Positions 18,044 through 51,932 of a stretch of 64,000 nt of DNA are shown here, in pieces. The notes under the pieces were generated by a model. It saw only the letters and a list, made by a program, of their open reading frames with translations. It did no database searches and was not told where the DNA came from. A program made the translations under genes and the position numbers. Each line of letters starts with the position of its first letter. Position 1 is the first letter of the stretch. Source of the stretch: Cryoendolithus antarcticus (lineage: Eukaryota; Ascomycota; Dothideomycetes; Cladosporiales; Cladosporiaceae); contig NAJO01000051.1 of NCBI GenBank assembly GCA_002077065.1, positions 124,001-188,000 of the forward strand, read 5' to 3'.

Positions 18044-19421
18044 TCATTTCCTTTCCACGAGTGATAAAAATTCGGGATCAGAGCTCAACTTGCCAGGGCC
18101 CATTCCTCCAGGTCTGGCGCCTGCGTTAGCGAGCCTTGCATTGACGAGCGTGTAGAGGGTATTGCGCTCGTCCTTGACGTTCCCGGATGCAAGCTGAGGG
18201 CTGGTCCCAAGTCCGCAAGATCACGAAGACGTTCCCAATCCTACGTTGTGCGATGCCATCGCTTGCTGGAGCTATCCTGACCTCGTAATCACGAGGTCGG
18301 ATCTTACTGGTGAAGCGCCAGAGACACCCGCCTCGCCAATGCTTCCGAAGCCTGCAGGTCGGCCCATAATTTGTCAACGATTTCGAATACCTGATCTCCA
18401 TTTAGATTCCTGATCTCTTCTGAGGCAACGGATGTATCTCGTGGGTCCTCGTCGTCGGCTGCAACGTGCGGCCCAGCGTCCGTGTCGTCTGTGAGGTCAA
18501 TGACGCCATCTCTATACCGATCAACGCTCTCCACAGGCGCGAGAGGAGTGCCTCGCGCGATCCCTGCACCAGGCCTCCTTCCTACAGCCTCCCCCTCAGC
18601 CTCGAGCTCCCGTTCCCCCAGCTCCTCCGCCTCACGCAGATGGTGACTCTGGCGCTGCACTTGCGAGGCCCTATCAAGCAATTGCACTGGCGGCGGCATT
18701 CTAAGTCGACGTTCCTATCGTTCCCGTATCCGAGTCCCAGCGCGGGTGCTTGTGATGGCCCAGCCGCAGCCTTCAGGCCTCTGTAATTCTTCAACGCGTG
18801 CCCCACCATGAGTGCCCCGAAGTACGCAGCCAGCGCTTATCCAACTAACGAACTCGCTCTCCACTGAACTGGGTCTGCCGACTCGCTCAACCACCCTGTT
18901 GTCGCGTCCGTATCCCGTTCATTGCAACCATAGGCGATAGCGTCCTCCACTAAATGGGACCTCGGATAACGGATCGGGCAGACTATCCCTCCGTATGTAT
19001 GCAGGAAAGATGCTACCAGGAAGTCGCGGTCCATCGAGAAGTCATGCGAGTCTGCGTGCAGAACTAGCAGCTTGTCGAAAGCTTGCTTGCGCGGCCTGTC
19101 AGCTTCGCTCCCGTAAAAGCCTTGCCAGCGGAAACCAAGTGCCTCATATCTGGTCTGGACAAGCTGACGTTGGGCATGCCATGTCTCTGCGACATACATC
19201 TCAGGATTGAGCATAATGTCTGAAATCCGAGTCCTTTGCCTTCGCCAAGCCACGAGTGGCAGCCTCAATTCTGGCAACGAGTCCAAACCTGCCATAGTGT
19301 CGATGTCACCCGGGTCAGCGGTTGGCTGAAGTAGTGTCTCGCGCAGCTCACTGATTCTGGCCGTTTCTGTTCTCGTGAGTAATAATGTGAGCCAATGGCG
19401 ATGCCTGATACTCGCTTCGGC
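18044..19421 (-). CDS. Hypothetical multi-exon protein, N-terminus unresolved
   Basis: No family recognised. Three open blocks appear to belong together. Exon A is 19421-18850, starting at an acceptor after GACTAG. Exon B is 18700-18308. Exon C is 18194-18044, ending in TGA. Proposed introns are GTTAGT...CTTAG (149 bp) and GTAAGA...CCTCAG (113 bp); their phases match and give about 371 residues. Block A contains LLLTRTETARISELRETLLQ and a charged, tryptophan-containing region. Block B is acidic (VIDLTDDTDAGP) with a helical end. Block C contains DERNTLYTLVNARLANAG. No start codon was found for block A, so at least one 5' exon above 19421 is missing. Blocks A and B each also contain an ATG, so two small genes remain possible. 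Confidence 0.42.
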
Positions 19422-20084
19422 CTAGTCTTGAATGGAGAGATGTATCGAGACTTGACCCAACAAACAGAGGCAAGGACACCAGCGACTCGAAGGAGAGAAA
19501 GTAATAAGGATCAGCACAGCGAAAGCACATCTTCGGCCGCGTAGCGCTTGCTCAGACAGCACCAGTGCGCTCCTGCGCAAGCCCTTTCGAAATCAGCGAA
19601 GGCAGACCAACCTCCGCAACTTGCATTGCAGATATATGTATCTCTTGGCGACCTACTCGTATGCGGTCGTGAGCGCTGGAACTGCGCTTCCAAGTCAAAA
19701 TTCGCATGACATGTGCGCAACCCGTCGCTCGTGTGATGGCGAATATCGGCAAGTACTAGATCAGATACAGCACATCGAATGTTTTATCGTCAAGGCGTTC
19801 ATGGTCAGTGTCTCAACAAGATATTATCGGCTTGGCATTTTCTGCCATCGCGAGATAGATCTTAATACACGCAGAGTCATGAAATGGTGAAGGCAGGAAT
19901 AGGCAATTGGCACAGCATGCAATCTGCCATCGAACACATGTCCAGAGGTGAGGGAAAAAATCGTTCATCCGGCCAGCTGCAGTGCGGTATCTTCATTACC
20001 GCCCTTACCCCGTTCCTTCATAATCAGCAGCAAACTCCAGTAGAATGCGCCGAGCTTTCTCTCAACGTCACTTCATCCACGACT
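19422..20084. other. Intergenic or unresolved 5' exons
   Basis: Between the two hypothetical minus-strand genes. Short minus-strand open stretches around 19511-19750 (for example one containing VAEVGLPSLISKGLAQERTG) could be 5' exons of the 18044-19421 gene, but no splice chain could be fixed. Confidence 0.35.
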
Positions 20085-20732
20085 TCACTCCTTTACCTTT
20101 TCCACCTCCCCCAACTTCTCATCCTCCCTCAACAGCCCGAGCGCAATGTAGTCCTCCTTCGTCATCTCACCCTGCTCAATGATCTTCACACTCTCAACCC
20201 TCGTCGCCATCTCTACCAACACATCTTCACATTCCATCGTTCTCAGCTCATCCCTCGCCAAGCCACCAACGAGCAGTACTTCAACATATGCCCTCAGCAT
20301 ATAGCCAATACGACTCATACCCGCCAACTCGAACTCATCCTGCGGCACAGCCTTGGAGCCTCCTTTGCGCTTCGCACCCCACTTGCCATCGAAAGCCGCA
20401 ACGACACTCTTCGCATTGAGCCGACCCTTCACACGCACCTCCGGAAATGCGAGATGGGCACGCTCAGCGACTTTGCCGGGCCAGAGCTTCTGGCCGTGAG
20501 TAGTGACGAATGAATAGAGAAAATTGTGCTTGTTGGCTGCATTGTTCCAGGCTTCCAGATTCATTGTCGAACCCTGTATGGGCTTACCATAGTAGTCGAT
20601 GAACTCGAATGACAGCAGATGGCGAATGACAAGCGACTTGAAGGCCTCGAAGCGCGAGTGGTCGTCGGGTGAGTTCTGGAAGCGGAAGGTCAGGGAGCGG
20701 TAGGCTTGGAGAAGGAGGTAGTGGTCGGCCAT
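20085..20732 (-). CDS. Hypothetical protein, 215 residues
   Basis: Family not recognised. The start MADHYLLLQAYRSLTFRF at 20732 is preferred over an upstream in-frame codon (20852) because the added 40 residues look non-coding. The sequence is globular in composition: an N-terminal helical part (FEAFKSLVIRHLLSFEFID), a basic middle (KWGAKRKGGSK), a hydrophobic GYMLRAYVEVLLVGGLARDEL helix, and a charged C-terminus ending in EKVKE. No signal peptide or transmembrane segment is obvious. The regular codon structure over 216 codons supports a real gene. Cytosolic or nuclear location is a guess. Confidence 0.6.
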   Translation of the reverse strand: MADHYLLLQAYRSLTFRFQNSPDDHSRFEAFKSLVIRHLLSFEFIDYYGKPIQGSTMNLEAWNNAANKHNFLYSFVTTHGQKLWPGKVAERAHLAFPEVRVKGRLNAKSVVAAFDGKWGAKRKGGSKAVPQDEFELAGMSRIGYMLRAYVEVLLVGGLARDELRTMECEDVLVEMATRVESVKIIEQGEMTKEDYIALGLLREDEKLGEVEKVKE

Positions 20733-21542
20733 TGTTAATGATTTTGGTTGCTCGCCTGATCTTTGTGTCGGAGAGTGTTCGGGTATTTCTTGGGAGAGTG
20801 GTGGGCATTTTGTAATTGAGAGGCAAGCAATGCAATTGCATCGTCGTCTCATGCACAGGCACGTGAGTGGGCAACGGCATCACTTCGAGGTCCTTCACTG
20901 TGGGTACTGTGGAGTGGTTGCGCTGGAGGTCGCTGAGGTAGGCGGAGGGTGGGAGATCGTCAGGCAGCAAGCGGGTAGACTGCAGAAAGGAAGCAACGTT
21001 AGGTCATTAATCATAGAAAAACATTTTGCGAATGCTGAGAGAGCGCATGAACAGGCCACTGTTATTGTACCGGTAGTGACACGGGCGGAGCAAGACGCTC
21101 TGGCGATCAAGCCGTTTACTTGCGCGGCTAGAGGCTGTCGGTTGCACGCCATATCAGAGGTCGCACTCTGAACGGCTGCGTCGCTGTTACGACTAGCTCG
21201 AATCGGGCCTCTCAATGTGCTCATAGTATTCTGCCGCCGATAATGGGCGTTCAGTACCCACGCAGATGCCGCCACCATGCGACATTGAGCAAACTAGCAG
21301 TCGAGTAGCTGTCCCACAGCGCTGCAGAGGCTGCAGACTCACTTTTGATACCTCACTTGCAACTTTGAGGTCCAAAGTGCACGTGACAGTAAGCTTTCCG
21401 TCCGCAAATAAGCGCGTACCGACATGTAAAGTCACTGTCACTCAATCCTTTTCGACATATTCCTCATAACAACACCAAGATCTTCTTGACTCTCTCACCA
21501 TTGCGATACCAAACATCACAATCCTCATACTCAATCGTCACC
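20733..21542. other. Intergenic, divergent promoter region
   Basis: Lies between two divergently transcribed hypothetical genes. The 21440-21542 part is C/A-rich and resembles a fungal 5' leader. Nothing else recognised. Confidence 0.5.
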
Positions 21543-28035: not shown

Positions 28036-31000
28036 ATGGATCCCGGGCACCGAGGCGGATGGGCGCAGGGCGGCGGGAACCCACATGGAGACCAACAAAA
28101 CCAGCCAGGGCCACGTCCGGGAGCATTTGGGTATGTTCTCCCTGATCTTTAGTACACGCGCACGCATGATCTGTACCATTGTCATGGGCGACTGTGACGC
28201 GTGGATGCACTTTTGGCTGCATTCTCCCCTTCTTCATCCCCAGCGAGGCGATGAATGCACGCTAACAGAAAGGACTCACAGGCCGGGGCAGCTCCCGCAG
28301 CAATCGCAGCAATCACCACCTGCGGGAAACGCGAACCTCCCGCCACCGAATGGCCATTTTGGGTATCAGCAGCAGAGCCATGGGCTAGGTGGACTGCCAG
28401 GGCTTGCACACTCTTCGCCAAGGCAACCACTGCAACCACCTCATCGACCAGACGGTCAGCCAGGCATTGGATTTAGTCTGCCAGCAATTGGTCAAGCGAC
28501 GAGCCAAGCAGCTGCTGCTGAGCAGCGCGAACGGGAGCGGGCTCGCGACATCGAGCAGATCCACATCAAAGAAGAGCAAGATCGAGCACATCGAGAGCAT
28601 CAAGAGCGTCAGAGGCTCGAGCAGGCGCCGCAGCATCAAGCACAACCAGGACAGTCGATACATCTGCATCAGCCAGTTGCTGTTGGTCCTCGGCACGGGC
28701 TACTTGGGAATCCAGGGCTTGGTGTGTCGCAAGCACAGCCTGCTTTCCCGCTTGGAGCACCCTCGGGACCTGGCAACATCTTCGCAGGTGGTCCAGTGCA
28801 ACCACCGCAATCCCAGGTGCTCGGCAATCAACAGCAACAGCCAGGCCTTCTGATGCCCTTTGCGCCGGCTCAACAGCAGCAGGCTGGACAACAGCAACAA
28901 CAGGGACCACCACCAGCAGGTCAACCCCAGGGTCAAGGTCAAGGCCAGCAGCCTATCCTGAATGATGCGCTCAGCTATCTGGACCAAGTCAAAGTGCAAT
29001 TCGCCGATCACCCAGATGTTTACAACAGATTCCTGGACATCATGAAAGACTTTAAGAGTGGTGCTATTGATACACCAGGTGTAATCGGCAGAGTCAGCCA
29101 GCTCTTTGCTGGAAATCCCGAATTGATCCAAGGGTTCAATACGTTCCTGCCACCAGGCTATCGGATCGAATGCGGTACCGGTGATGATCCCAATGCGATT
29201 CGAGTAACGACGCCGATGGGTACGACAGTGCAGTCAATGCCACAGCCTCGTCCTCTGAGTCAGCAAGACAGTGCGCCTGGCAGAAGAGAGAACGGCACGT
29301 ACACTCCCCAACCTGGACAACAACCGCAGATGATGCTCAGTCCAAATGGTCGCGCCATAGGACCAACGATCGGTAGCAATCATCTTTCGCCACTCGAAGT
29401 GGCCCGTCAGCAGGAGCAGCAAGCGATGCACCAGCAACAGGAACGTGGTGTCAATCACCTGCAAAACGCTGTCTCAGCTGCAGCAAGCGGTGCTGCGCTT
29501 CGTGCAGGCATGTCTCCAGCACCAGGCCGCATTACACCTTTGCCGCAGGACGGCGATGGTCCAGGCGGGATGGAAAAGCGCGGACCTGTCGAGTTCAATC
29601 ATGCGATCAGTTACGTGAATAAGATCAAGGTGAGCAAGACTTTCTGCTATCACGTGAAAGCAAAGAAAGCACGCTAATAAACTTACCCTCAGAACCGATT
29701 CTCATCACAACCCGACATCTACAAGCAGTTCCTCGAAATCCTCCAAACCTACCAACGCGAATCAAAACCCATCCAAGACGTCTACAGCCAAGTCACGCAT
29801 CTATTCAAAACCGCTCCAGACCTCCTCGACGATTTCAAGCAGTTCTTGCCAGAGTCTGCCGCTGCGGCCAAAGCGCACGCCGCGCGTGCGCAAGCTGAGC
29901 AGCAGGCTATGTTGTCGCATGTGCGGGGTGAGCCGATGTACGGCAGCCCGGTGATGTCGAGGGAGGTAATGGGTACGCCAAACCATGGGAGAGGGTTGCC
30001 ACCTGTTGGCAACTTCGCGCCAACGCCGACGGTGAAGGACAACAAGCGGAAGAGGGGCGAGAGGCAGGGGACAGTCAATAGTGCTGTTGAGCCTATGGCT
30101 GTTGCTGGACCGAGCAAGGGAGCGTTTGGAGGGCAGCAGAGTAAGGTGAGTAATACTGATAGAGCCAGACGTTTGCGCATATGTGACCTCCCACTGACAA
30201 CGCCACAGCGCGCAAAGCAGGCGCACGCGATGGCGAAGGCGGCCGAGCAGCCTCCTTCATCGCCAACATTGATTCCTGCGCTGCCATTCCCACTACCGCC
30301 CACGACATCAACACTCGCCACCAGTGAAGAGCTCAGCTTCTTCGATCGCGCGAAGAAAGCCATCGCCAACAAGAACACCTTCAACGAGTTCCTGAAGCTC
30401 TGCAACCTCTTCAGCCAAGACCTCATCGACCGTACCACACTGATCCACAAGTCGCGCGCATTCGTCGGCAGCAACACAGACTTGATGAAGTGGTTCATGG
30501 ACTTTGTGGGGTACGAAGAGAAGGACATACTGGTGGAGAACAAGCCGCGCATCCCTGGCGGCAGGGTGAGTCTGAGCAATTGTCGCGGTCTTGGGCCGAG
30601 TTATAGGCTGCTTCCTAAGCGGGTATGTTGACTCCCTTCTCTCGTTGTCGCGTGCGTGACATGTATACTGGAGTCCGGGGTACCCCTCAGGACCTCCCTG
30701 GGACGTTCCTTCCAACTTGGAATTCTGGCGCACGGACCTTGCCTTCACTGAACGAGACGATCCTATTGTCGAACTTACCATTGTCGACTTGCCTCCATCT
30801 CATCTCGCTCTCGGACGAAGTACATCTCACCTACGACAACAACTTTGCAATCGAATCACTCGCAAACCTCCCCCTCTCGGACAGCGCTGGCCGCACCTCA
30901 CTCACAATTACCCACAAACCGTTCACGTCACCAACAAGATGGTGTCCACTCGCAAGAAGGTCGTACAGGATGGTGAGCAGCTGGCTGCTCTGCCAAATCC

Positions 31001-33974
31001 GACGACACCGAATGCGAAAAAGACTCAAGCCCCAACTCCACCCGCCACACTTACCCCGGTTGGCAGATCCAGCAGCAAGGGCAAGAAGAGGAAGGCCCCA
31101 CCGCCTGCCATCCCTATTCCATCTGCGTCCGAGGTGACGACCATGATATCGACTGGGCTTTCTTCTGCCACCCTCATACTCACGCCGAACGCCAAAGCTG
31201 AGTGTCTGGAAAACGAGCGCACGAATAAGAGAAAGCGCGTTCCGCAATCTGGGATGTCGGTCATCAATCTGAGCCCGCGGCTTTCGTCTGGTGCTTCCAC
31301 GCCAATCCACACTATCGCCGACTTTCAAGACTATGCTGGTGCCAAGATCAATGCTGCCAAGAGACTCAAGCTTCGCGGCGGAGACAGCACAACAGCAATT
31401 GTCAAGACAACATTCGAAGTCAGAGATCGAGTGAAGGAGCTGGGATATTCGCCATTGAGGACCGGGAGAGACTACCCAGAGGCTATGTACAGCGATATCC
31501 GAGGCTCTTCGCCACGCCAGGCTCCATTCGACGACTTCTTCACTAAGCCCACCGCTCCGGATCCTGGACCTCGACCCACATCACCCGGACATAGCCCACT
31601 GGGACGTAGCTTTATGAAGCTTGCTAACGCACAAATTTTGCAGGAGCGCCAGAAGCCATGCAGCGGTCGTGACGAGCTGTGCCAAGCAGTCTTGAACGAC
31701 GAGTGGGCTTCTCACCCTACGTGGGCGAGTGAAGATTCCGGATTTGTCGCTCATAGGAAGAACGCACACGAAGAAGGTCTTCACCGTATCGAGGAAGAGC
31801 GTCACGACTATGACTATAATATTGAGGCTTGCGGTAGGACCGTGCAGCTGCTCGAGCCCCTTGCGCAACAGCTACTGCGCCTTTCGCCAATCGAGCAGAT
31901 GGCTTGGCAGCTTCCCACTGGCCTTGGCGGTCAGAGCGAGACTATCTACAAGCGCGTCATCATGAAGGTCTATGGCCGCGAGATGGGCCATGAGGTGATT
32001 AGGGAGCTGCACAACCACCCGTACCAAGTCATCCCGGTCTTGCTCAACCGCCTCAAAGAGCGCCTCGAATCTTGGAAGCTGGCTCAGCGCGAATGGGAGA
32101 AGGTCTGGCGCGAGCAAACCCAGAAGATGTTCTGGAAGTCTCTTGATCATCAGGCTGTCAACACCCGTAATTCGGACAAGAAGGCCTTCCAGATGAAGAC
32201 GCTGCTCGGCGAGATTCAAGTCAAGCATGAGGAGATGGTCAGAGAGGACAAGCAGGTGCCGGGTGTTATGCACAATGCGCAATTCAGCTATGCTGTGGAG
32301 GACGCGGATGTGGTGCTCGACGTCGCCCGCCTAGTGCTCACCTATATCGACGCCAACATGACGCAAGAATCGCCAAAGCTACCTGCCTGGATGCGCGACT
32401 TTATCCCCACCTTCTTCGGCATGGACCCAGACTCGTTCAACGAGAAGGTCGCCATCAAAATCAGCCCAAGCGACACGCCTGCCAACGAAGTGGCCGATGA
32501 TCTGCCATCTGGTGCCGAGGATGCCGCTACTCCGAGAGGTCGCAAGGCTAAGGGCAACAATCTCTTCCGAAATGTCATCGACAAGCAGCGTGCTGGCAAG
32601 TTCGGCCGCAAAGATCGTGAGGACAGCAATGCCTCCGCCAGCCGTGCTTCAACTCCTGAGATCGGCTCCATCGCTGCTGACGATATGGTGATCGACACTG
32701 CTGAAGAGGCTGAGAAGAGCGAGGCTGTCGTCCAGCGCTGGCTCGAGCATCCCACCACTGGTAACAGCGTTGGTGATAGGAATGTCGATCCCGCTGAGCT
32801 GCACAATCGCACCGTCTACACCATGTGGGCCAATGGTCCAATGTACTGCGTCGTTCGCATGCTGACGATGCTCTACGAGCGTCTGCTCAAGCTCAAGAAG
32901 GGCGAGAGGGAGTGCCACAAGGCTATCGCCCGGGCCAACACCGAGAAGCCAGCCCTCGACCTAGGCATCGTCGACAAGCTGCCAGCCGACTTCTTCGAGG
33001 ACACCTCAGAGCACGCCAGCTACTACCGCCAGATGCTTGGCAAGTTCGAGAAGTGCCTGATCGGCGACGCCGACTTCACCGAGGTTGAGGATATTCTTCG
33101 TCGCTTCTACTTGCAGTCCGGCTACCAGCTGTACTCGCTTGAGAAGATGATGCAGGCATTCGTGCGCTACGGCAACAACATCCTGATCAACGAGGGTAAG
33201 GAGAAGAGTCTTGACATCTACAACATCTGGCGCAAAGATCGCATGAGGGAGACCTCGAACGCGGCGCAGATCGTCGATTACAGAAAGTCAGTCGAGAAGC
33301 TGCTGAAGGACTCTGAGCTATATCGCATCGACTACGTAAGTCTCTTCCTACGCCACACTGATCGAACATCAGCTAACGATCACCTCCAGGACCAAGCCAA
33401 CCCCACCCTCCGCTTCTACCTCACCAAGAAAGATGATCCTACCTTCGACGCTGCGCTCTCACCTGCTGACCAAGAGCACCGCTGGCGCTACTACCTCGCC
33501 TCCTACACAGCCTTCACCGCAACCGCCGGAATCACCTACGACACGCTCACACGTCCCTTCCTCTCGCGCAACTACCGTGCCTCCGGCCTCGCCACCTCTG
33601 ACCTCTCTGCGCCCCCTTCGCCATCTTCAGAAGAGGGAGTGGATTACATCTTCCGCCGATTCGCTGCCGCTAGAAGCGAGGAGAACCTGACTATAAGGAT
33701 CACGGTCAATAGCTACCATCGGATCTTTGAGAAGGGAACGCAGGAGTGCTTTTTCTTAAGTATGGGGGAGAGGAGTGGGGCCGAGGAAGGGTTGAGGGAG
33801 AGGCAGGAGGTGAAGGCTTGGAGGGAGGAAGCTGTTAGGGAAGGGTGGGAGTTGAATAATGAGGCTATGAGAGATGTTGGGAGGGAGGTTGTGGAGGGTG
33901 CTAACGACGCGTTCATGAAGTTGGTCGCTGGCGAGGAAGTCGTGGGAGAGGGGGAGGGCATGGAGGTCGATTGA
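28036..33974 (+). CDS. SIN3: SIN3 histone-deacetylase scaffold (three PAH domains plus HDAC-interacting domain)
   Basis: Six exons: 28036-28130, 28282-29629, 29693-30145, 30209-30622, 31644-33335, 33390-33974; 1,528 residues. Sin3 scaffolds the Rpd3 deacetylase corepressor complexes in the nucleus. After a Gln/Pro-rich N-terminus come PAH1 (about 258-325, [19 protein letters not shown]), PAH2 (about 468-540, split by intron 2 at [17 protein letters not shown]) and PAH3 (about 671-735). The junction [20 protein letters not shown] is contiguous in Sin3 proteins, which supports removal of a 1,021-bp intron (30623-31643). The Sin3 HDAC-interacting domain follows, including [17 protein letters not shown] and [12 protein letters not shown]. 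Introns 3 (63 bp) and 5 (54 bp) are stop-free multiples of three. The long intron 4 contains an ORF in frame with exon 5, annotated separately. Confidence 0.93.
30939..31643 (+). CDS. Open frame inside SIN3 intron 4, in frame with exon 5 (candidate alternative N-terminus)
   Basis: Within the 1,021-bp intron the frame of exon 5 is open from about 30717. The ATG at 30939 (context CAAGATGG) gives 235 codons before joining the exon at 31644 without a stop. The peptide is basic and Pro/Ser/Thr-rich with two nuclear-signal-like clusters ([12 protein letters not shown] and [10 protein letters not shown]) and a less repetitive part ([20 protein letters not shown]). I recognise no family. Such a long open stretch in an intron is unlikely by chance. 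Options are an alternative first exon for a short SIN3 isoform of about 993 residues lacking the PAH domains, an optional internal exon, or a split gene. The splice signals at 30623 and 31643 still support full-length SIN3. Confidence 0.4.
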
Positions 33975-39531: not shown

Positions 39532-39974
39532 GAAGGGCAGAGAGAATGATGCACTACCAAACGACGACCAAGTCGCGCAGATCCGAGGGTCAATGTGAGC
39601 ATAGCGCTGCACGACCCATACGCACAGTATCTGAGACACGGGGCTTCGATGCATGTACCCACAAAGTACGCACAGCCGCCGACGCAGACGGAGGCTCACT
39701 CTGAGCTCCAGTGGACCGCAGCGCAGAGCCAAGTGAAGTCATCGCGATCGCTCACAGGAAGATGGCGCTCAAAGTTATTGCAATGGCCGCTGGAAAGTGA
39801 CCTAGAGAGGTGGTGGGAAGAAAGCTGAGAGTTGTTCTGCGAATTTGACGGCTTTGGAGATTGCCATGTGCCCGAAATGGCAAGGGATGTACATGTCGGA
39901 GGCAAGATCGGCTCTGGACGGATACATGTAGTTTTGAAAATGGAGTGGCAAAGACAATCTCTACTCTCGACTGT
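39532..39974. other. Intergenic between convergent PTC7-like and SEC20 genes
   Basis: 443 bp of 3' sequence of both genes. Nothing further recognised. Confidence 0.5.
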
Positions 39975-41324
39975 CTATAATTCGTCTCTGACCTTCCCCT
40001 CCTCCGAACTTTCATCAACAAACCCCTTCTTCCGCGGATTCGGCTTCTCATCCTCCCTCCGCTCCCTCAACACCGTTCCATCGCCCCTCTTCACCTCCTC
40101 TTTCTCCCCAGCAGCCATCTTCCCAATCTCCTCACTAACCTTCCCACTCAACTCACCGCTCTTATCCCGCTTCGCGCCGCCTCCACCCGCGCCAGCCGGC
40201 ACACCCACACTTTTCAGCTTATCTGCCATGCCTGGGATGAACTGGCGCACGCCTTCCGTAGCGCTTGGCTGGATGATCAATGGGCGGCGGGTCGTGGTGC
40301 TTTGGTACGCCAGAGCCGAGGAGGTTGGGTCGTAGGGTGTTGTCGTGATGATGCCTGTTACTGTGCAGAACAGCAAGAGGGGTTTGAGGAGCACCCAGTT
40401 GAGCAGGAAGATGCCAACGCGGTAGAAGAACAACGGCAACCTGATAAATGGGCCGTAGAGGAGTCGTCTGAAGATCAGCCAGACTAGGGTGGCGCAGAGC
40501 AAATAGAAGGCAGTTTCCAAATACCACGTATCGCTCTTCTGGCTCCTGACGAGCGTGCTTAGCAGCTCGCGACTCTTGCCTAGCACGGAGCCAAGGTCGG
40601 TGTACTTGTCGCCTAGCTCTGCGAGGGCGGCGGTGCTTTGTTCGAGAGTTTCGGTCGCGAAGTGGCTCCTTCCCACCTCAGTCTCGAGCAGCGCGTGCGT
40701 GCGTCGGAGACTAGTCGTTAGATCCGAACTCGTAGTAACCAGCAAGTCGTCTCCACTCCTGACCTGCTGTCCACTCCTCCCAGCTTTGCCTTTACTGCGA
40801 TGCGCGAACAAGCTTTCCCGCGGCGTCGAAGCACCACTCGAGTCTCTTGCAGCTGTTTCCTTCCTCAGCTCAGCAAAGACCAACTCTCGTTCCTGCACCT
40901 TCGCAGCCTCCGCGTTCTTCTTCGCGACAATCTGCGCTCTTCTGAAGCCCGCCCTCGCACTCTTCAAATCCTCGCCAAGCTTAAGCACACTTGCTTGCAA
41001 CCTCTCGATTTCCCCTGCTTTACTCCCTCGTCTCACGCTCCCGCTCCTCGTCCGTCCAGCAAGACCACTAAACCCCGCGCTGCCGGTGCCGTGACTGTCA
41101 GTCAGGTCCTCGAGTTCTAGCCGCAGTAGCTCGAGATCTTCGTCTAGCTGTGCCAGGGAATCGTGGATATCCTGCGCGAGCTCTAAGCGGACGGAATTGG
41201 GGTTTTCGGAGAGGGATTCGGAGCCGGGTTGGAAAGAGAGGGCTTGCAGCCGTGTGATTAGGGTGGTAGTTTGCGTGAGGGTTGAGGTGAGGGATTGGAG
41301 ATGAGATTGGAGGGTGGATGCCAT
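39975..41324 (-). CDS. SEC20: SEC20 family Golgi-to-ER SNARE
   Basis: A 449-residue single-exon ORF. An N-terminal helical region (residues 1-75) with heptad character precedes a coiled coil (about 100-155). The Sec20-type SNARE-like segment lies at about 200-262 (SSDLTTSLRRTHALLETEVG, then YTDLGSVLGKSRELL). A transmembrane helix follows at 267-286 (YLETAFYLLCATLVWLIF), with a second hydrophobic stretch at 297-325. Sec20 forms the ER t-SNARE with Tip20, Ufe1 and Use1 for retrograde COPI vesicles. The yeast protein ends in HDEL; this one ends in EGKVRDEL, an RDEL-type retrieval signal, which fits. The C-terminal 100 residues are Lys/Glu-rich. Confidence 0.9.
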   Translation of the reverse strand: MASTLQSHLQSLTSTLTQTTTLITRLQALSFQPGSESLSENPNSVRLELAQDIHDSLAQLDEDLELLRLELEDLTDSHGTGSAGFSGLAGRTRSGSVRRGSKAGEIERLQASVLKLGEDLKSARAGFRRAQIVAKKNAEAAKVQERELVFAELRKETAARDSSGASTPRESLFAHRSKGKAGRSGQQVRSGDDLLVTTSSDLTTSLRRTHALLETEVGRSHFATETLEQSTAALAELGDKYTDLGSVLGKSRELLSTLVRSQKSDTWYLETAFYLLCATLVWLIFRRLLYGPFIRLPLFFYRVGIFLLNWVLLKPLLLFCTVTGIITTTPYDPTSSALAYQSTTTRRPLIIQPSATEGVRQFIPGMADKLKSVGVPAGAGGGGAKRDKSGELSGKVSEEIGKMAAGEKEEVKRGDGTVLRERREDEKPNPRKKGFVDESSEEGKVRDEL

Positions 41325-41611
41325 GGGTAGGCTGGATTGCGGTGCAGCATGAGTCGTCCGAATCGCGATATCAAGTGCTGTTCAAGGTTGTTTGTGAATG
41401 TCAGAGGCGACGTCAGAGTGGCTTTGCTGTGTTGCGCCACGTGGCGCGAAGGGAACAGCAAGACACGTGATGAAGGACGGTTTGCCAAGAACACAGATCA
41501 TGTTCCAAGGTGACAGCTCTCGTCTACCATACAAGTGGTACCCTTCATTACTCGTTGCACAACTGCCCTGATCCGCCATGTTCGTCGCGTCCCTCACGAC
41601 AATCCTCCCAA

Positions 41612-43972
41612 TCAAGCCCTCATCAAATTCACAAACCCAACAAACCGCTCCACATCCAATCCCTCCTTGCCCTCACCTCTCGCCGCGGCAACCTCGACCT
41701 CCACCCTATTAACGCCCTGAGCAAGACTCCCCTCATACACGTGTCTCCTCAAGCCTCCAATGCCCTGCCCAACCTCGCCACTCTCGACCACAGTGTCCCG
41801 TTGCGTGAGCCGCGTACCGTTGACGGTCACGAAGCATTTGTATGGCGTTCCACTGCTCAGCCGGCGAGAGATAGTAGGTGAGATCTGCAGGAAGTAGTGC
41901 GTGTGCATGAGTGTGAGTGTGCGAGATTGCGTGGCCAGTGTCGGATGAGGTGAGATCTCGAGGTGAAAAGGCGAGGGGAGTTTGAGGTGAGGGTGCGTCT
42001 TAAGGGTTATGAGAGGTATGAGTGCGTTCTCTAGAGGATATGTGCGTACTGGCGTAGGTGGCAGAACGGTTGGCGCAGTGTAGTGGTAGCTTGTCGGTAG
42101 TTGCGTTGGATGAGGACTGCTGCTGTTTGGTCGGAAAGAGGGCGGTGGCATTGTGCCATTCGTAAGACTCGGGTGCACAGCATTCAGAGCTGGCGACTGC
42201 GAAGGTCGACTTTCGAGCTTCACAGGCTCGGGCGAGCGATGGCTGCCGGCTGTGTGTGATCGCCTTGGGTCCAGCGTTGGGACGTTTGAGTTCGAATGGC
42301 TGGTGCCGTTCACGCCGTACTGTGGGCGCTGCTGCGTCGCATAGCCATCCGCGCCAGCTGAGACCATCTGCCGCTGGCGTGCGAGCGCTTCGCTGTCAAC
42401 CGAGACTGCACCGGGCGCAGGTGGCGGCTTGTTGCCAGACAGACTGAGCGTCACCTTCGGCTTCGGTCCACCGAGCTTCAGCTTGGGTTGCGATGGCTCA
42501 TCGACTTTCGATCGAACGTCCTCAAGCAGCTCATTGAAGTGCTCCTCGAAGTCGTTCGCAAGTAGGTACATCTCACTACCATCCTCATTGTAGTCCCTCG
42601 CGTTCTTCCAGATGAAGGCCATCTCCTCGCCAAACTTATCCCAAGACTTGAAATCGGTGATACCAGTCGGGTCATTGCGACCATGCTGGCCTCTGATCCT
42701 CTTCGCTACGCCCTTCAGCGAAACAGGGTACTTGATGAATTTGTAATAATCTTCCAGCTTCCGCGAAGGCAGCATTGCGAAGGGCGTGTAGATCTCCAAG
42801 CCTCTGTTGAGATTGTCAGTGGACTTGCCTCTCAGCTAGCATGCAGGCAGACTTACTCATCGTCTGTGTACGACAACAACTCATCTATGATCATCTGCTG
42901 CGCCTGCTGGAACGTCTTGCCAGCGAAGTCCAGCCCGCTCTGATTCTCCTCGACTTCAGCAGACGCAGAAGCGGCAGGCTTACTCTCTTCCACAGCTGGC
43001 GTTGCAGAAGCCTTGCCTCTCTTTGCCGGCGTCTCACTCCTCGCTCCATTCGCCTGCGCCCCACCCTCGGCATCCTTGCCAGGCAATGGGGTAGGAAAGC
43101 TCACATACCCTTCCACCTCTCGGTAAGCCGGGTTGTGTATCTTCATGTAGTTGAACACCAGCTTGCGGATCTTCTCGGCATCCGAGAAGGCGCGACTAGC
43201 CTGTTCGTTGTAGTCTTTGGCATTCTGGACCATGCGCTTAAAGTCTGATTCAATCTCGGTGACAGTGCTGTAGGCATTTGAGGCGAGTTTGCGCTCGATC
43301 GTGTCGATTGCTATGGGGAGACGGGTGAAGGTGTAGTAGTCTGGCAGGTCTTTGCGGGAGGGGAGAGTGAGGAAGAGGGTGGAGATTGGGTGACCGGTGC
43401 TGGAGGATGTTGTTAGTCTTTGTCCTGCATGAACTTACGGTCGAGATAACGGCACGTACGTCTTGTCATTCGACCGCTTGATCTGATTGACTAGCTGTTG
43501 TCCAATCTGCTGGATTGCAGCAGTGTCGCTCGATGGTGCAGGAGACGCTGTGGTATGCTTGGAGTTCTGCAGAGTGGCATGTTAGATGTTTTGCGCTGTT
43601 GCAGGCGGCCTTGCAGGTGCAATGCGGTGGTGGTAGCGGTGCTGGGAGCAAGGTTCGGTCATCGGTCGAGATTGGAGGGACGGAGATGTCGTCAAGGTCA
43701 TTCCCGCATGGGTGCTTCGACACTTGCTCTTCCTCTTCTTCGTCCACCTCGACCACCACCAACCCACTCTCTCAACACCGCCGTCGTCGCCTGTGCATGT
43801 CCATGACCTTGCAGCATGTTGCAGATACGCATGTGCGCTGGTGATGCTGCACGCTGGACCAGTGGGCGACTTGTGAAGAGGACAGGGAGGGTGAACTCAC
43901 TACGAGCCGGATCCTCTTGGTCGCGCCGTCATTCGGCGTCGCGTTCGATGCTTTGCGCTTTCTCGACTCCAT
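41612..43972 (-). CDS. RSC4: Tandem-bromodomain subunit of the RSC remodeler, Rsc4-like
   Basis: Four exons: 43972-43901, 43566-43460, 43399-42857 and 42803-41612, giving 637 residues (yeast Rsc4 is 625). The start MESRKRKASNATP carries a nuclear signal. Bromodomain 1 is formed across exons 2-3 (IQQIGQQLVNQIKRS ... LTLPSRKDLPDYYTF ... MVQNAKDYNE). Bromodomain 2 is formed across exons 3-4 (DELLSYTDDE-GLEIYTPF, MLPSRKLEDYYKFIKYPVSL, IWKNARDYNEDGSEMY). A Pro-rich linker and a beta-rich C-terminal domain follow, as in Rsc4. The domains read acetylated histone H3. The donor of intron 2 could also be GTAAGT at 43438, but that intron would be only 39 bp. The 334-bp first intron is long for this window. 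Confidence 0.87.
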
Positions 43973-44729
43973 CCTGCACACTGGCCTGTCACGAGCTGTC
44001 GAGGATGGTTCGGTGTAGACCGGAATAGAGCTTGAAGAGCGATCGTATATGTTGTCCACGCGGCAACGACAATAGCGTGTTCTTCGACTGTTGTGCCTTG
44101 CTGCGCGTCCTCGAACACGATTTGGGCTGAGGAAGCGGCACTAGTGGTCTGTGCACGACGACTTTGGACTTCGCCTGTCATATGAGAGACAAGCAATCAC
44201 ACATCACAGGCACAGGCAATATCGAGACACGCTGCTACGACCGACATACTGGATCATCGACTAAGCAAATGTGAAGTGACAATAGCGACCAGGGACTATA
44301 AGGGATGCTCATGGTCTCACCGAATTTCAGTAGGAAGATTTACCAGGTTATGCTACTGGCAACGACTCCAGTCTCCCTTGAGAATTCAATAGGATCGCTG
44401 ATGTGCAAGTGTGAGTAAGACCTAGTCATTCATAACGGTACCAGAAACCCGCAAAGTTTGGTGGGCAGTCTGCCGTTACGAAGCTTGCGTTGACTACGAG
44501 GTGAGACCCATTGTCTGCACTTGCTTGTCTGGAGCAAACATACACCACAAGAGCGTCTGCTCACTTGCATATGAGCTCTCTCTTCATCTTATCTGTCTCC
44601 TCATTGACATCTCATCCCTTTCCCATCTCCTCAACGTTCCAAGATCCCAGATGCGATCCAAGACGCAGCCCGAGAGGTCAAACACAAAGCCTATACCCAC
44701 TCACATCGACCGCACCACCCACGGCCCGC
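43973..44729. promoter_or_regulatory. Divergent region between RSC4 and a hypothetical gene
   Basis: 757 bp between divergent starts. Several ATGs occur in the last 230 bp, including one at 44651 in another frame. No motif assigned. Confidence 0.45.
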
Positions 44730-45419
44730 ATGGCCGATACATCCCAGGCGCCATCTTCGCCTCTCCAGAGACGGAGAAGTATCATCGAACCACAGATTCA
44801 GCCCAGTGTGGATGGTGGTGTGTCCCTACACAGTTCAAGCGGGACTATGCTGGGCTCAAGCAATTGCCGATGCAGCCCAGGGAGAGAGACGAGATTGCGG
44901 AGTGGGTCGAGCAGTCGAGACGAGGAAGGGGATGGTGATGGGCATGAGATGGGGGCAGGCGAGGAGATGATTGGATCGGGTGGCGAGAGTGAGGAGGAAG
45001 AGGGGTTAGAGGACAGTGGAGGGGGCGTGAAGCTGGAGAAACCGATTGAACGAGATGGTTACATGTCCGAGCCTGCGCTGGTGTGCTGTCCTTACCCACG
45101 CCACCGCTTGACGACCACACAGATGAATCTCTCACGCAATCGTACCTCGCAGCCGTCACTCTGGCCTTCGACTATTGCACCATTGCCGACTCTCCCGCAC
45201 ACTTCGGATCAGTCGGCGCTAACATCGGCTGTGCCAAGCACTCGCCGTCGTCACAAGCGCGAGTACGTCAGCTTGGCAGATCGCCCGCAGGTTGATCCAA
45301 CGGCGCTGGACTTTCAGTTCCCCGGAAGAGCGTACATGTCGGATGACTGGCGGATGGATCAAGAACTACATTCGCGGAAAGCAGACGAAGCCGAGCAGAG
45401 AAAGCGGAGCAAGTCGTAG
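44730..45419 (+). CDS. Hypothetical acidic, low-complexity protein, 229 residues
   Basis: No family recognised. The ATG at 44730 (MADTSQAPSSPLQRRRSII) has a good context; the frame is open further upstream. The middle is very acidic (HEMGAGEEMIGSGGESEEEE), followed by a Ser/Thr/Pro part and a charged C-terminus (RREYVSLADRPQ-like, then FPGRAYMSDDWRMDQEL and a basic end KRSKS). A second frame starting at 44651 overlaps and also looks codon-like over about 60 codons, so an intron or a different start is possible. Probably a disordered nuclear protein. Its stop lies 77 bp from the convergent FAS1 gene. Confidence 0.5.
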   Translation: MADTSQAPSSPLQRRRSIIEPQIQPSVDGGVSLHSSSGTMLGSSNCRCSPGRETRLRSGSSSRDEEGDGDGHEMGAGEEMIGSGGESEEEEGLEDSGGGVKLEKPIERDGYMSEPALVCCPYPRHRLTTTQMNLSRNRTSQPSLWPSTIAPLPTLPHTSDQSALTSAVPSTRRRHKREYVSLADRPQVDPTALDFQFPGRAYMSDDWRMDQELHSRKADEAEQRKRSKS

Positions 45420-45496
45420 ATACCCAACCCCGTCATGTCGCATCAAAACATCCCAGCCCCTTCCCTTCGCATACCAAACACCCCACCCTTTGCAAC

Positions 45497-46120
45497 TTAT
45501 TGCCTAAAGTCTACAACCCCCCTCAACATCCAAACCTCCCCATTCCCCGCCTTTCCCACAACCCCCTCAACCTCCACCTTCCCAGGCATGATTCTCCTTT
45601 CCCCCTCCTCCCCGTGAGTCTCCCACCACACCTCCCCACCCCCAAGCGTCTTGACCTTCTTTCCCTCTTCCCAAGGCCGCTCACAGACTACATGAGCTTC
45701 CGTGAAGCGCTTCAGGTTCTCTGCCGCGCGTTCGGAGCCCTCGGAGCCAGAGTAGGCGTTTGCGCCAAGTTTGTCGTAATCCGCGGGGGATTCCCAGGGT
45801 TTGCGCGGGAGGGACGAAAGGACTGTGTTCAGCGGCGCTAGGAGTGTGGTGTTTTCTGAGGTGGACTCTAGTCTAGATAAGACTGATGATACGTCCCGCG
45901 TGAAGCCGGCGAAAATATTGATGCGCTTCTGAGATGGCAAAAGGTCCGAGAGGATGGATGACGATGCTGATTGAGGTGCTGGCGCGCTGTCTGCGAGGGC
46001 TTCGAGGGGTTGTTGGTTCGGTTGGGCCATGGTGGGGGGCTTTGGGTCGGAGAGGACGAGGAGCTGGGCGGAGGCGCTGAAGATGAGCGAGAAGGGGAAG
46101 AGAGTGTGGTGTAGACGCAT
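45497..46120 (-). CDS. FAS1 (fasciclin) domain-containing secretory protein
   Basis: A 207-residue single-exon ORF from the ATG at 46120. MRLHHTLFPFSLIFSASAQL is a signal peptide. After a Pro/Ala/Ser linker, residues about 65-205 resemble one FAS1 domain: SDLLPSQKRINIFAGFTRD, then the characteristic TLLAPLNTVLSSLPRKPW, and a C-terminal GKVEVEGVVGKAGNGEVWML segment ending in GVVDFRQ. FAS1 domains mediate adhesion or protein-protein contact. This short fungal form is an uncharacterised conserved family, with a yeast relative in the vacuole or ER. No transmembrane or GPI signal at the C-terminus. Its start is 181 bp from that of FAN1. Confidence 0.82.
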   Translation of the reverse strand: MRLHHTLFPFSLIFSASAQLLVLSDPKPPTMAQPNQQPLEALADSAPAPQSASSSILSDLLPSQKRINIFAGFTRDVSSVLSRLESTSENTTLLAPLNTVLSSLPRKPWESPADYDKLGANAYSGSEGSERAAENLKRFTEAHVVCERPWEEGKKVKTLGGGEVWWETHGEEGERRIMPGKVEVEGVVGKAGNGEVWMLRGVVDFRQ

Positions 46121-46301
46121 GGCTGGTATCACGATGAACGAGAGACGGGGACGCTCAGCTGAGGGTATTAAGAACAGCTGCTTCGGTCTACCTGAAGTGA
46201 GTGCCTACGATGTCATTGGCACGTGTCAGCGCGTCCAACCGCGCTGCACTTTGACCTCCTCCAAGCTGCAGGCGCGTGAGTGGCGACGACGAGGCCAGGA
46301 C

Positions 46302-49016
46302 ATGGCATTGCAAGCCAGCAGTCCATCGAAGCACAATGCGATGCTCGGATCCAGCAAGAAGGTCCCTCATCCCAGATCAACGAAGTACGATGAAGCGGAG
46401 GAAGACTTCGCGACGCCTTCGCCTAAGCGGCAAAAAAGAGGACTCTCGGGCTTTGTGAAGAAGACAGTATCGCCGCAGAAGGTAAGAAGAGAAGCTGTAC
46501 CCGACTCAGACGATGATGGAGAGGAAGTAGTGTATGATGGTGAAGCACCCAAAGCTCGACAGACGGATATCGAGACCGCATTACCGCCCATACAGACGGA
46601 TCAGGAAGCTATCGAAGCGTACGAAGCTTCACGAGCTGCTGGAGAGCTTGATATAGATGGAAGGCTTGATCAGAGGAAATGGGAGCGCGGCAAAAGCTCG
46701 ATCTATGTCGATGCGTTCAACCTGGCGCTCGAGACGGTTCTGGACGAGGAGAGCCATCTCTTCGATGAGGCCGAGCACGATGTCTTCACCAACTGGCGCG
46801 GCTTAAGCTATGAGGCGCAATACTTGTATGTGCGGCTATTCCTGCGGAAGACGTCGAGCTGGCATCGCGTGAGTCGGCTGGGGTATCATAGCGATATTGC
46901 AGATCTGCCGCAGGCGGTGCTGGATTTGCAGGTCGCGTATGATCTGCCGAGTGCGTCGTCACAGGTGCAAGACAACCCTGGCGAGTTGGAGGCGCCGGAG
47001 GACGCATCGTTGCGGGACCGATTTTGTTTTGCGGATAGGTCGGAGGATTGCATTAAAGATCTTGAGGAGGCAAGCTCGCTGCTGCTTTTGGACGAGCTCA
47101 AAGCGATCGCGAAGGATGCTAAGGTGCAGGGAAAGAACAAGAAAGAGCTGCTGCGTGCTCTGCGAAGAGCAAGTAGCAAGCAGACTGGTCTCGGCTTTGC
47201 AAGTCTCAGGCGATCTGATACGGACGAGTCCGCGGTGTCCGCAGGCTCGGAGATTGACGACGAGGTGCGAGAGCAGAGAGCGAGAAAGCGAGAGAATCGA
47301 GACAAGCACTTCGTTGACAAGATCATGGCAGAGACCGGGCCTTGCATAAGGCTCTCCTTGCCTACTTTGAAGCTATTCGAGCGGGTGCATCTTGTCTTCT
47401 ACCGCAGCACAGAGTGGACCGAGAAGTCTCTCACCACCATCATCCTCGCTCGCATCGCTCGATGGAACTTCCCTACCTACATCGTGAGTCGAAGTGCGAA
47501 CATCTTCCCGTCTCGCGCGCTGCTCCTGGAGTTCGAAGCCTCTGTGCGTACGCAGTTCAGAGTTGACAACATCCTTGAGTTCAGTGGCACGCCCACGAAC
47601 GACACATTGCAGACCGTACTCGAGATCTTCGAGCAAGTTTATCCACGATGGAAGGTTCTGCTCGCAGAAGAGCAACACAAGGAAGACAGTATCTACTCCA
47701 CAGGTGAAGGTGCTTACTTGCGTCGACTGTCGCCTGCTTGGGTGTATACTCGCATCATCCATAAGGGCGCGTATGTTCTTGGCAAGTTCAAGCACCATGC
47801 CCGCGAGCATGAAGTCCTAGTCGAGCTTCTCAATCAGAAGCTGTTCCATGCTGCGAGACGTGGTGATTGGTACCAGCGCAAAGCTCTGTTGGAGGAACAC
47901 TACATGTACCTACACCTGCCCTCGCCTACAGACTGTAAAGACGTGGAGGCAAAGAAGAAGCATTGGAAGCGAGTCGCATTGCGGACATGCGAGATCGGGC
48001 TAGAAGACCAGCTGTCCCATCTCATCCACCACCACGACTTGCAGAAGCGGACAGTGAAGCTTGAGAAGTCACTCAAGGTGCCAAAGAGGGCTCAACACGA
48101 CTTTGGACATGTGCGACTCACGAAGCCACTAGAGAGGACGTTCACTGGCGTCCGGATTGTACGACCGCCTTTTCTATCACGCCAGAACAGTGGACAGAAC
48201 GCCACACCCAATGCAAAGCCCATACCGAACCGCAACACCAAAACAATCTGGCTCGACCCAGCTTTCGAGCACTCGCCCCGGGGACTCGAGAAACCCGAGA
48301 AACCCGAAGATGAGCTCATAGACGACACGAAACCTCCCATCCTGAGACGTAAATCTTCCGCCCCCTCCTTGGTCGGCGAATGCTCCGTCGAATTAATGTG
48401 CCTCTCCCACTACCGCGCCCTCGGCTACAAAGGCTACCACTCCGAAGGCCGCCTCCTGCGAACCCTCTTTGCGCACCTCTTCCACGACGTCTTGTACCTC
48501 TACATCCCCAATGTCTTCCAGACAGCGTACCAGACCTGTCCCTTAGACCTGCATACAGATGCTTTTTATCCCAGCCGCATCTCCGAGATCAACGCACGGC
48601 TCAACGAGCTGAGCAATGGAGACGCGGGGAGGCTACTAGAGAGGTGCTACGCCGAGCACGGCGAGAAGAAGACGTGTATAGTCGGGTTAGACTGGACGTA
48701 CGAGCCCTCCGATCTCGCTGAAATCTGTGCATCCTTCCCTCCTGCAGCGTTGGCCACGGTGATGAAAGTTATGGCGCAAGAGTACGCGCAGCGCGGCGGC
48801 GGCGTGCCGGATCTGTTTCTCTGGAAACCTCGCAAGGTGAAGGAAGAGGATGGCGGAAGCGAGGGCTGTGAGGGCGAGGTGATGTTTGCAGAAGTCAAGA
48901 GCGAGAATGATAGGCTGAGCGATACGCAGAGGATGTGGATTGATGTGTTGAGTGGTGCTGGGGTGAGGGTGGAGTTGTGTCATGCTGTTGCTGGGGAGGC
49001 GAGGGTGCAGGGGTGA
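46302..49016 (+). CDS. FAN1: FAN1-type structure-specific nuclease (interstrand crosslink repair)
   Basis: A 904-residue single-exon ORF. The ATG at 46302 (MALQASSPSKHNAM) is preferred because the upstream part of the frame is antisense to the FAS1 gene. No UBZ finger is present, as in other fungal FAN1. Visible parts are a disordered basic N-terminus, a FAN1 N-domain region (YLYVRLFLRKTSSWHRV), a SAP-like helix pair (LLLDELKAIAKDAKVQGKN) and helical repeats. The C-terminal VRR-NUC domain (about 813-896) has the PD-(D/E)xK residues in GGGVPDLFLW and VMFAEVKSENDRLSDTQ. FAN1 cuts 5' flaps and helps resolve DNA interstrand crosslinks. Convergent with DUS2. Confidence 0.92.
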   Translation: MALQASSPSKHNAMLGSSKKVPHPRSTKYDEAEEDFATPSPKRQKRGLSGFVKKTVSPQKVRREAVPDSDDDGEEVVYDGEAPKARQTDIETALPPIQTDQEAIEAYEASRAAGELDIDGRLDQRKWERGKSSIYVDAFNLALETVLDEESHLFDEAEHDVFTNWRGLSYEAQYLYVRLFLRKTSSWHRVSRLGYHSDIADLPQAVLDLQVAYDLPSASSQVQDNPGELEAPEDASLRDRFCFADRSEDCIKDLEEASSLLLLDELKAIAKDAKVQGKNKKELLRALRRASSKQTGLGFASLRRSDTDESAVSAGSEIDDEVREQRARKRENRDKHFVDKIMAETGPCIRLSLPTLKLFERVHLVFYRSTEWTEKSLTTIILARIARWNFPTYIVSRSANIFPSRALLLEFEASVRTQFRVDNILEFSGTPTNDTLQTVLEIFEQVYPRWKVLLAEEQHKEDSIYSTGEGAYLRRLSPAWVYTRIIHKGAYVLGKFKHHAREHEVLVELLNQKLFHAARRGDWYQRKALLEEHYMYLHLPSPTDCKDVEAKKKHWKRVALRTCEIGLEDQLSHLIHHHDLQKRTVKLEKSLKVPKRAQHDFGHVRLTKPLERTFTGVRIVRPPFLSRQNSGQNATPNAKPIPNRNTKTIWLDPAFEHSPRGLEKPEKPEDELIDDTKPPILRRKSSAPSLVGECSVELMCLSHYRALGYKGYHSEGRLLRTLFAHLFHDVLYLYIPNVFQTAYQTCPLDLHTDAFYPSRISEINARLNELSNGDAGRLLERCYAEHGEKKTCIVGLDWTYEPSDLAEICASFPPAALATVMKVMAQEYAQRGGGVPDLFLWKPRKVKEEDGGSEGCEGEVMFAEVKSENDRLSDTQRMWIDVLSGAGVRVELCHAVAGEARVQG

Positions 49017-49220
49017 AGGGGGACATCCTTCCTTTCGCAGACCTGACAGGGCTACTAGGTGTCATACTACACACATGAGAACTGCTCTGCGTCGCACGCG
49101 ACGATCGTCTATAAAGGTGAGTGATCGATGTAGTGCTGAGAGAAGACCAGCACTTGGTCTCCCCGCTGTACACTGCAGTCTCTTTGGTATCATCCGTTGC
49201 CTTCAGCTCGCTGATCTTTC

Positions 49221-50525: not shown

Positions 50526-51932
50526 GATTCTTTTAAGCATGCCCTTGTGGCGAATGTGTCGAGTAACACGAGCGGAGTTACTTCACTTAACGTAGTTCGT
50601 GTTGTCTAGAATTTGTCCTCTCGGCGGCTCGGTGAGGGGTTTCGGTATCATGCGGACTCTGAAAGCAGCGTAAAAAGATACACTACGGTCGTGGCGAGTG
50701 TATGCGAACCATTGCCAGCCGGTCTTCGTCCGAAGTACTCCACGTGAATGAATGACTGTGGCCGTCTAGAGTGTCAATGCATCAACAGTTGATCGAATTC
50801 ACTGATCGCTGCACCCGATGAACTGTGACAGCCATTGCGCTGGAAGTGACGAAGCCGTTGCGAGATCATCCCGCAAAACGCCCTGGAGTCAAGTCCCGAG
50901 AGTCTGGGCGATGGGACGAGCCGCGACTAGCGCGCTAGTCTATTTTCGCCATGAAGCCAAGGCCAGACTGCACCTCCCGTCAGAGCGATGGACAACACGA
51001 TGCGAAACATCACCATCACCTGCTTTTACACTAGCGGGATGTAAACACTGACTGCCCACGCTTAGTCTTGAAGTGATGGGCCAAAAGTATAGTAATCTGG
51101 ACTTGAATCCGGATTTCGTGTGCAGGGTCTCGGCATTCCAGTCATTGATTGCCACATACTATTGGTGCAGATGCCATCAATGTCTGTCAGGCGCTCTACC
51201 TTCTGTCCGTGCGGACGTGCAAATGTATGTCGCAAGTGGGATTACAGCGTGACGTTGTCAGATTGGATGCGAATCAGGCACATAAAGCTGCTTTTGAAGC
51301 GCGCGCCGCTCGTTCCGTGCGCTATGCAGCCATGAGCACGTAGGCCAACAAATCATTCAGCACATCATACTTGCGCATCTTCGGGCCAATACGCTATCGG
51401 ACGAGTGTTCCACAATCTACCGTCAATAATCATGACATAGCATACTGAAATATTGCGTCTGCTTCAAGTATCGATGTGGAAGGCTCTCTGTTGAAAATAG
51501 TGGATTTCATGATGTTCTTCGCCTTATGCCCGCTACAAATTCGGCTGGTCCGAGCGCCTGTAACCGTCTCCAGTCCGCATCCTCGCACCTTGCCGTGCTT
51601 GTCCCTTTCCTCTTCTCTCCACATCCATCGACATCGCGCTTCTGCCTCGTGTCTTGCTTTCCTCTTCTCTGCGCTTCGTGCAAGCAATTCCCATAGCGCG
51701 CCGAATCTGTCAGTCACCGTCGGATTTATCATCCGGCGCAACCTCGACATCACCCTGGCCACCTGGGCCCTTCGGGAGTTCGCAGCCAGATCAGCACAAT
51801 CTGCGTCGTCATCTGCAATACACGACGTGGTCTCTGCATCGTTTTCACTGCTTCCTGCAACGACAGATGGCAGCGCCTTGACGACTTCGGCGCGACGTAA
51901 CATATGTTGCATCGATATTTGACATAGCCAAC
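50526..51932. other. Intergenic divergent region between DUS2 and SNT2
   Basis: 1.4 kb. The part from about 51560 to 51680 is pyrimidine-rich on the plus strand and may be SNT2 leader. ORFs of 148 and 160 codons lie on opposite strands over 51430-51922, but neither looks like a protein. No tRNA was found: a B-box-like sequence near 51107 lacks a partner A-box. Confidence 0.45.

Follow-up and report, generated by a model that had tools for sequence, protein, structure and literature searches.

The 1,021-bp intron that lies between PAH3 and the HDAC-interacting domain (HID) of SIN3 in the window (i.e., the whole 64,000-nt stretch of DNA analysed here) contains 235 codons (30939-31643) that, judged by comparison with a second copy of the gene in the same genome, are protein-coding and fast-evolving. 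We think it probable, though well short of certain, that an internal promoter makes a 993-aa, 112-kDa SIN3 lacking all PAH domains beside the 1,528-aa protein. A PAH-less SIN3 had been proposed in a preliminary description of this DNA; that reading is partly supported by the present comparisons, its promoter and its effect on Rpd3 being putative.

Layout of the SIN3 gene

Pfam matches to PAH repeats, Sin3_corepress (HID) and Sin3a_C place the gene among the SIN3 corepressor genes. Six joined exons give, in a single frame, a full-length SIN3 of 1,528 aa, and the closest named protein is a deposited sequence from Rachicladosporium sp. CCFEE 5018 (P0001), which puts the window in or very near that rock-dwelling genus. 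A second SIN3 copy is present in the same genome (contig C79, 348844-351246, minus strand), and we call the two copies homeologs because the contigs that carry them are largely colinear across the window. The features of the gene are as follows.

28036-30622, + strand: SIN3 exons 1 to 4 (28036-28130, 28282-29629, 29693-30145, 30209-30622), with PAH1, PAH2 and PAH3 (Pfam PAH matches; colinear with P0001)
30623-31643, + strand: SIN3 intron of 1,021 bp, spliced out to give the full-length form (donor GTATGT, one CTRAY branch site, GCTAAC, at 31623-31628, TTTTGCAG acceptor; splice signals identical in the homeolog)
30640-30938, + strand: putative promoter within the intron, together with the 5' leader of a short form (ATG content, C/G skew, divergence below that of short introns)
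30939-31643, + strand: coding segment of 235 codons that begins with ATG, ends in LANAQILQ and shares the reading frame of the HID exon (omega, indels, copy in P0001)
31557-31672, + strand: 116-nt run across the acceptor, the same in both homeologs (alignment to the homeolog)
31644-33335, + strand: SIN3 exon that encodes Sin3_corepress (HID) and a portion of Sin3a_C, common to both forms (Pfam; aligns to yeast Sin3 from residue 764)
33390-33974, + strand: final SIN3 exon including the stop codon, common to both forms (exon joining)

The intron at 30623-31643 measures 1,021 bp versus 54 to 151 bp for the other four SIN3 introns. Both of its signals are present, i.e., the donor (CGG/GTATGT at 30623) and the acceptor (TTTTGCAG/GAG at 31643), and splicing joins LLPKR to ERQKPCSGRDEL, confirming the restored LLPKR join of the preliminary description. 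A TGA (30657-30659) is the stop directly before the intron frame; from 30660 to the SIN3 stop the frame is stop-free (1,104 aa) and joins the HID exon in frame, with 328 intronic codons where more than 300 had been reported. Of these, the 235 codons of 30939-31643 carry a coding signature, and the 93 codons of 30660-30938 bear no clear one.

Coding selection on the intronic frame

Compared with the homeolog, segment 30939-31643 has a dS of 0.42 and a dN of 0.08, yielding an omega of 0.19 (bootstrap 0.12-0.31), and a second, BLAST-based alignment of this open reading frame (ORF) gave 0.18. The two remaining sense frames have omega values of 1.7 and 2.0 and contain 6-7 stops. Substitutions fall 22/17/59 on codon positions 1/2/3 (chi-square p = 1e-7), all four indels (12, 3, 6 and 9 nt) are multiples of three, and codon usage over the ORF is positive in the sense frame only, among the six frames. 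We consider the ORF coding rather than a chance frame because of this purifying selection, which is stronger evidence than the length of the frame. Protein identity between the copies is 98% in the HID exon versus 84% in the intron ORF; the HID exon has an omega of 0.016 and a dN of 0.008, so that the ORF evolves about ten times faster. An antisense gene over the ORF was considered and rejected: the best antisense frame has an omega of 0.28 with 4 stops, and the antisense of the HID exon mirrors its sense frame likewise (omega 0.10, 25 stops).

ATG30939, noted earlier for its good context, is retained in both copies with A-3 and G+4 although the adjoining bases differ, and is M in P0001, the window-homeolog alignment being gapped right around this codon and hence less certain there. 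Thus, this alternative 5' segment codes for protein, in frame with the HID exon, and has a conserved start of its own. No stop precedes the ORF-HID junction in the window, the homeolog or P0001, and the frame is intact in both the homeolog DNA and the P0001 protein; stops or frameshifts in close relatives had been named as evidence against the short form.

The ORF product is rich in P, S, T, A, K and R (pI 10.3), and the nuclear-signal-like clusters described previously are seen by eye as KGKKRK, TNKRKR and KRLK. Its fold prediction (mean pLDDT 42, one short helix) was made from a two-row alignment and is thus weak evidence of disorder; the encoded segment is probably disordered. Pfam returned no match for the window ORF and two sub-threshold matches for the homeolog ORF (E 0.07 and 7.6). 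The short form starting at ATG30939 is calculated to be 993 aa and 112.2 kDa, close to the ~110 kDa anticipated for a PAH-less product, and is predicted to keep the HID with zero Pfam PAH matches. Predicted masses are accordingly 112 kDa (short form), 170 kDa (full-length SIN3) and 195 kDa (SIN3 with the insert).

Leader upstream of ATG30939

The leader at 30660-30938 (93 codons) gave frame-0 omega values of 0.59 (BLAST-based alignment) and 0.67 (other alignment), and differs from the homeolog by one 2-bp indel. Frame 0 is open in both copies; its omega is 0.34 in the first half, on 13 changes, and 0.91 over 30801-30938. This weak signal leaves room for an older or longer coding frame in the leader.

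The 250 nt before ATG30939 in the window contain zero ATG and have a C/G skew of +0.37. Of 480 coding windows, 7% were likewise free of ATG, as was one of the 12 gene upstreams. The skew was matched by 1.9% of the coding windows and exceeds that of all 12 gene upstreams measured, these upstreams being defined from first shared ATGs, not verified starts. The matching 250 nt of the homeolog hold one ATG and have a skew of +0.33. Identity between the copies over these 250 nt is 87.5%, which is not extreme (2 of the 12 gene upstreams are higher and 10 lower). Region 30623-30938 differs less between copies than the four short introns do (40/312 versus 78/330 sites, p = 5e-4), a result also obtained with a MAFFT alignment (49/314 versus 83/331, p = 0.003); 209 of 712 SIN3 fourfold sites are changed relative to the homeolog. 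From these properties we infer that the part of the intron before ATG30939 holds the promoter of the short form as well as its 5' leader.

The homeolog has an in-frame ATG 92 codons above the shared ATG, the window counterpart of which (30660-30664) is put out of frame by a 2-bp difference; the start of the short form may therefore differ between the copies.

Splice signals and the conserved acceptor

The donor, branch site and acceptor of the 1,021-bp intron are identical in the window and the homeolog. The sole CTRAY in the whole intron of either copy is the GCTAAC that serves the 31643 acceptor (in the window the motif is at 31624); by eye, a CTRAY also lies close to the acceptor in each of the four remaining SIN3 introns. 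P0001 reads LTNAQ at the branch-site position, where CTAAC is still allowed. The 116-nt identical run across the acceptor is the longest in SIN3 and the second longest in the aligned window. Over the final 90 nt of the ORF, 0 of 17 fourfold sites are changed, versus 28 of 95 in the remaining ORF. The run is a probable reflection of overlapping coding and splicing constraint, as judged from the alignment, and gene conversion is another admissible origin for it. RNA structure over the conserved acceptor region was not indicated (z +0.71). Together, the retained splice signals and the unchanged fourfold sites on the acceptor side argue against gene fission and for two products.

Alternative readings of the intron

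The ORF could instead be an optional exon extension, in which an intron-internal acceptor adds about 225-235 residues between PAH3 and HID (up to 1,763 aa), a reading that we regard as unlikely, though it is the strongest of the competing ones. Precisely this inclusion is seen in P0001 (CCFEE 5018, 1,763 aa, a cluster of 7 sequences), where the ORF sits between LLPKR and ERQKP of a full-length SIN3 and the LLPKR-MVSTRKK join matches an AG directly before ATG30939 in the window; moreover, the ORF is in phase with the 30623 donor, and in-phase YAG sites occur near 30884 and 30968 in both copies. However, the P0001 gene model appears to be ab initio, as the available text of the CCFEE 5018 genome paper names Augustus, GeneMark-ES and EVM and leaves RNA data unmentioned (PMC5502844). 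In addition, the bases ahead of the ATG are AAG in the window and ACG in the homeolog, so that the P0001-type acceptor AG is missing from the homeolog. A CTRAY scan of the whole intron found no consensus branch site for an acceptor at the ORF start in either copy (weaker sites are possible), the only one serving the 31643 acceptor, and the frame-0 omega of 0.91 over 30801-30938 also speaks against an extension. The short-form reading in turn has evidence against it: P0001, the only deposited ORF-bearing protein found, has the ORF inside full-length SIN3; the homeolog leader has an ATG within the 250 nt plus the upstream in-frame ATG; and leader frame 0 is open in both copies with an omega of 0.59-0.67.

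A separate nested gene, whose own protein would not be fused to the HID, would agree with the tenfold faster evolution of the ORF and with its own start, and yet is improbable, because no stop precedes the HID exon, no stand-alone relative of comparable length was found at E <= 0.1 among 3,646 word-sharing candidates, and the organism's own genome (46.97-Mb assembly, 149 contigs) yields nothing besides the homeolog except a weak match (31%) that contains a stop. Neither mark of a stand-alone gene, i.e., its own stop or its own relatives elsewhere, was thus found. That weak third protein match (C99, E 4e-4, one stop) was read by eye and taken as a composition match. A DNA search of the same assembly returned the window and homeolog only, and a mobile or duplicated origin of the ORF was rejected; a plasmid DNA search returned nothing, which carries little weight for a fungus. 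Gene fission, with a PAH protein that stops after LLPKRVC and an HID protein from a gene of its own, the gene split considered in the preliminary description, would suit the open frames of both halves; it is very improbable and is disfavoured by the retention of donor, branch site and acceptor, by the unchanged acceptor-side fourfold sites and by the exact PAH3-HID join. That the long intron simply holds an open frame by chance, or one in decay, is hardly credible. Among 20,000 simulated introns (Markov sequences with the intron dinucleotide content), the median longest open frame was 118 codons and 187 reached 235 codons, which allows for chance at that length (6 reached 327 codons), but purifying selection and frame-keeping indels over a dS of 0.42 count against it.

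Distribution among SIN3 relatives

Among 2,174 word-sharing candidates of SIN3-like length, the ORF matched one protein cluster, P0001. No ORF relatives beyond Rachicladosporium appeared in two word-based protein searches (2,174 and 3,646 candidates), both of which reach only relatives with short exact words in common. A PAH3-HID junction motif fitted 97 of the 120 SIN3 relatives listed (the best 120 of 792, E <= 1e-10); in 90 of these 97 the spacing is the plain 7 residues, and the other 7, P0001 among them, are longer. The 23 listed relatives outside the motif comprise 4 with a plain join by eye and 19 without a clear join. Five of the longer junctions (P0057, P0072, P0075, P0089 and P0093) seem, by eye, to include intron sequence at the same site, which suggests that Pezizomycotina have long had this intron. 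After P0001, the nearest relatives in the list are P0012 and P0013 (64% over the HID exon); both show the plain join, and P0013 is a 1,458-aa protein on a 4,925-bp contig, leaving no room for a 1-kb intron beside it.

In-frame inserts at the PKR/ERQKP intron site are present in Peltaster fructicola P0003 (129 aa) and Coleophoma crateriformis P0093 (94 aa). The Peltaster insert has no significant match to the ORF; its PDB matches were weak and taken as composition, the best (E 1.2e-5) being a 20-residue alignment with a designed helical protein. The Coleophoma insert looks unrelated to the ORF and apparently ends intron-like, by eye. These inserts are either model errors or independent cases of the same arrangement.

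A proposed PAH-less SIN3

For the short form, coding selection, the conserved ATG, the conserved splice signals and leader conservation are directly supported; its promoter, transcript, protein and competition are proposed from them. The 1,021-bp intron would carry an alternative first coding exon: a promoter within it (about 30.64-30.9 kb) would start a short mRNA, translated from ATG30939 and reading unspliced through the 31643 acceptor into the HID exon, so that a fast-evolving, basic and probably disordered N-terminus would replace PAH1-3. Pre-mRNA from the normal promoter would lose the whole intron and give the 1,528-aa SIN3. The short form would hold Rpd3 via the HID and the WD40 subunit via the C-terminal region, and would be without PAH1/2 (transcription-factor binding) and PAH3 (Rco1 or Rxt2 binding); it is predicted to compete for Rpd3 or to form an untargeted Rpd3 pool.

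This division of contacts follows from yeast and Schizosaccharomyces pombe complexes as presented in the available text of the structural papers. Yeast Rpd3S has the HID wrapped around Rpd3 and PAH3 in contact with Rco1; PAH1/2 cannot be seen in it (PMC10432269). The yeast Sin3 HID is given there as residues 749-1322, and the SIN3 part of the short form aligns from residue ~764, so that a few HID residues would be missing. In S. pombe, the HID binds Clr6 and the HCR binds Prw1, Pst3 PAH3 anchors Rxt2, which blocks one active site, and in SIN3S each of the three Pst2 PAHs (PAH1, 2 and 3) holds Cph1 or Cph2 (PMC10115800). Because of these domain contacts, a PAH-less SIN3 should keep the enzyme and the WD40 subunit and not the targeting arms, and by analogy with Pst2, all three PAHs of which join the assembly, it might be excluded from a SIN3S-type complex.

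More tentatively, at a little under an even chance, we propose that a lineage-specific segment arose in an old SIN3 intron, captured the HID exon in frame, yields a PAH-less Rpd3 competitor in which Rpd3 binding is parted from targeting, and was kept in both homeologs of a duplicated genome. As the PAH domains of SIN3 serve targeting and the HID links it to deacetylation, an HID-only form, if real, would tune Rpd3 through the scaffold rather than the enzyme. It would also represent an apparently new coding sequence born in an intron and then held by selection, and suggests that an alternative first exon can go unnoticed where the gene model splices it into a long protein.

Comparison with known short SIN3 forms

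A search of open-access papers for short or PAH-less SIN3 isoforms found no HID-only form; the comparisons below follow the available text of the papers cited. Mouse SIN3B(SF)/SIN3B(293) is likewise a short form of the same gene with part of the scaffold only, but it retains PAH1-2 and not the HID, and is a splicing product that shares its transcription start with the long form (PMC5902990, PMC4914931). The predicted short form of the window, with the HID kept and the PAHs lost, would be its mirror image and falls outside the SIN3B(SF) type (PAH kept, HID lost). Drosophila SIN3 187/190/220 are also isoforms of one SIN3 gene, although all have PAH1-3 and the HID and vary at the C-terminus (PMC5902990). 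Caenorhabditis elegans SIN-3 resembles the short form in combining fewer PAH domains with the HID, whereas it is the product of the sole Sin3 gene, with one PAH, and not an alternative form (PMC5902990). Fungi are known to make N-truncated regulators from alternative starts, and one of these, Zeb2S of Fusarium, inhibits the long form; Zeb2, however, is a bZIP factor (PMC9604717), unlike the present corepressor scaffold with a new, conserved, intron-encoded N-terminal segment.

The homeologous region around SIN3

The whole window (1-64000) is duplicated on C79 (316000-385999; L010-L016), the main blocks being 73-88% identical and nearly colinear. This duplication is consistent with the gene counts of two Rachicladosporium strains (18,781 and 18,892) given in the available text of their genome paper (PMC5502844), and, judged from this locus, a whole-genome duplication or hybrid origin is likely. 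Most of a ~9.7-kb segment (39533-49224) matches the homeolog contig inverted relative to its surroundings, in two blocks (84% and 82%), and by this alignment is an inversion between the homeologs. Stretch 18625-20967 has 73% identity to the homeolog, below its surroundings. At 51751-52813, where a long gene that changes slowly has its 5' end, several runs (138, 99, 92, 92 and 79 nt) are identical to the homeolog.
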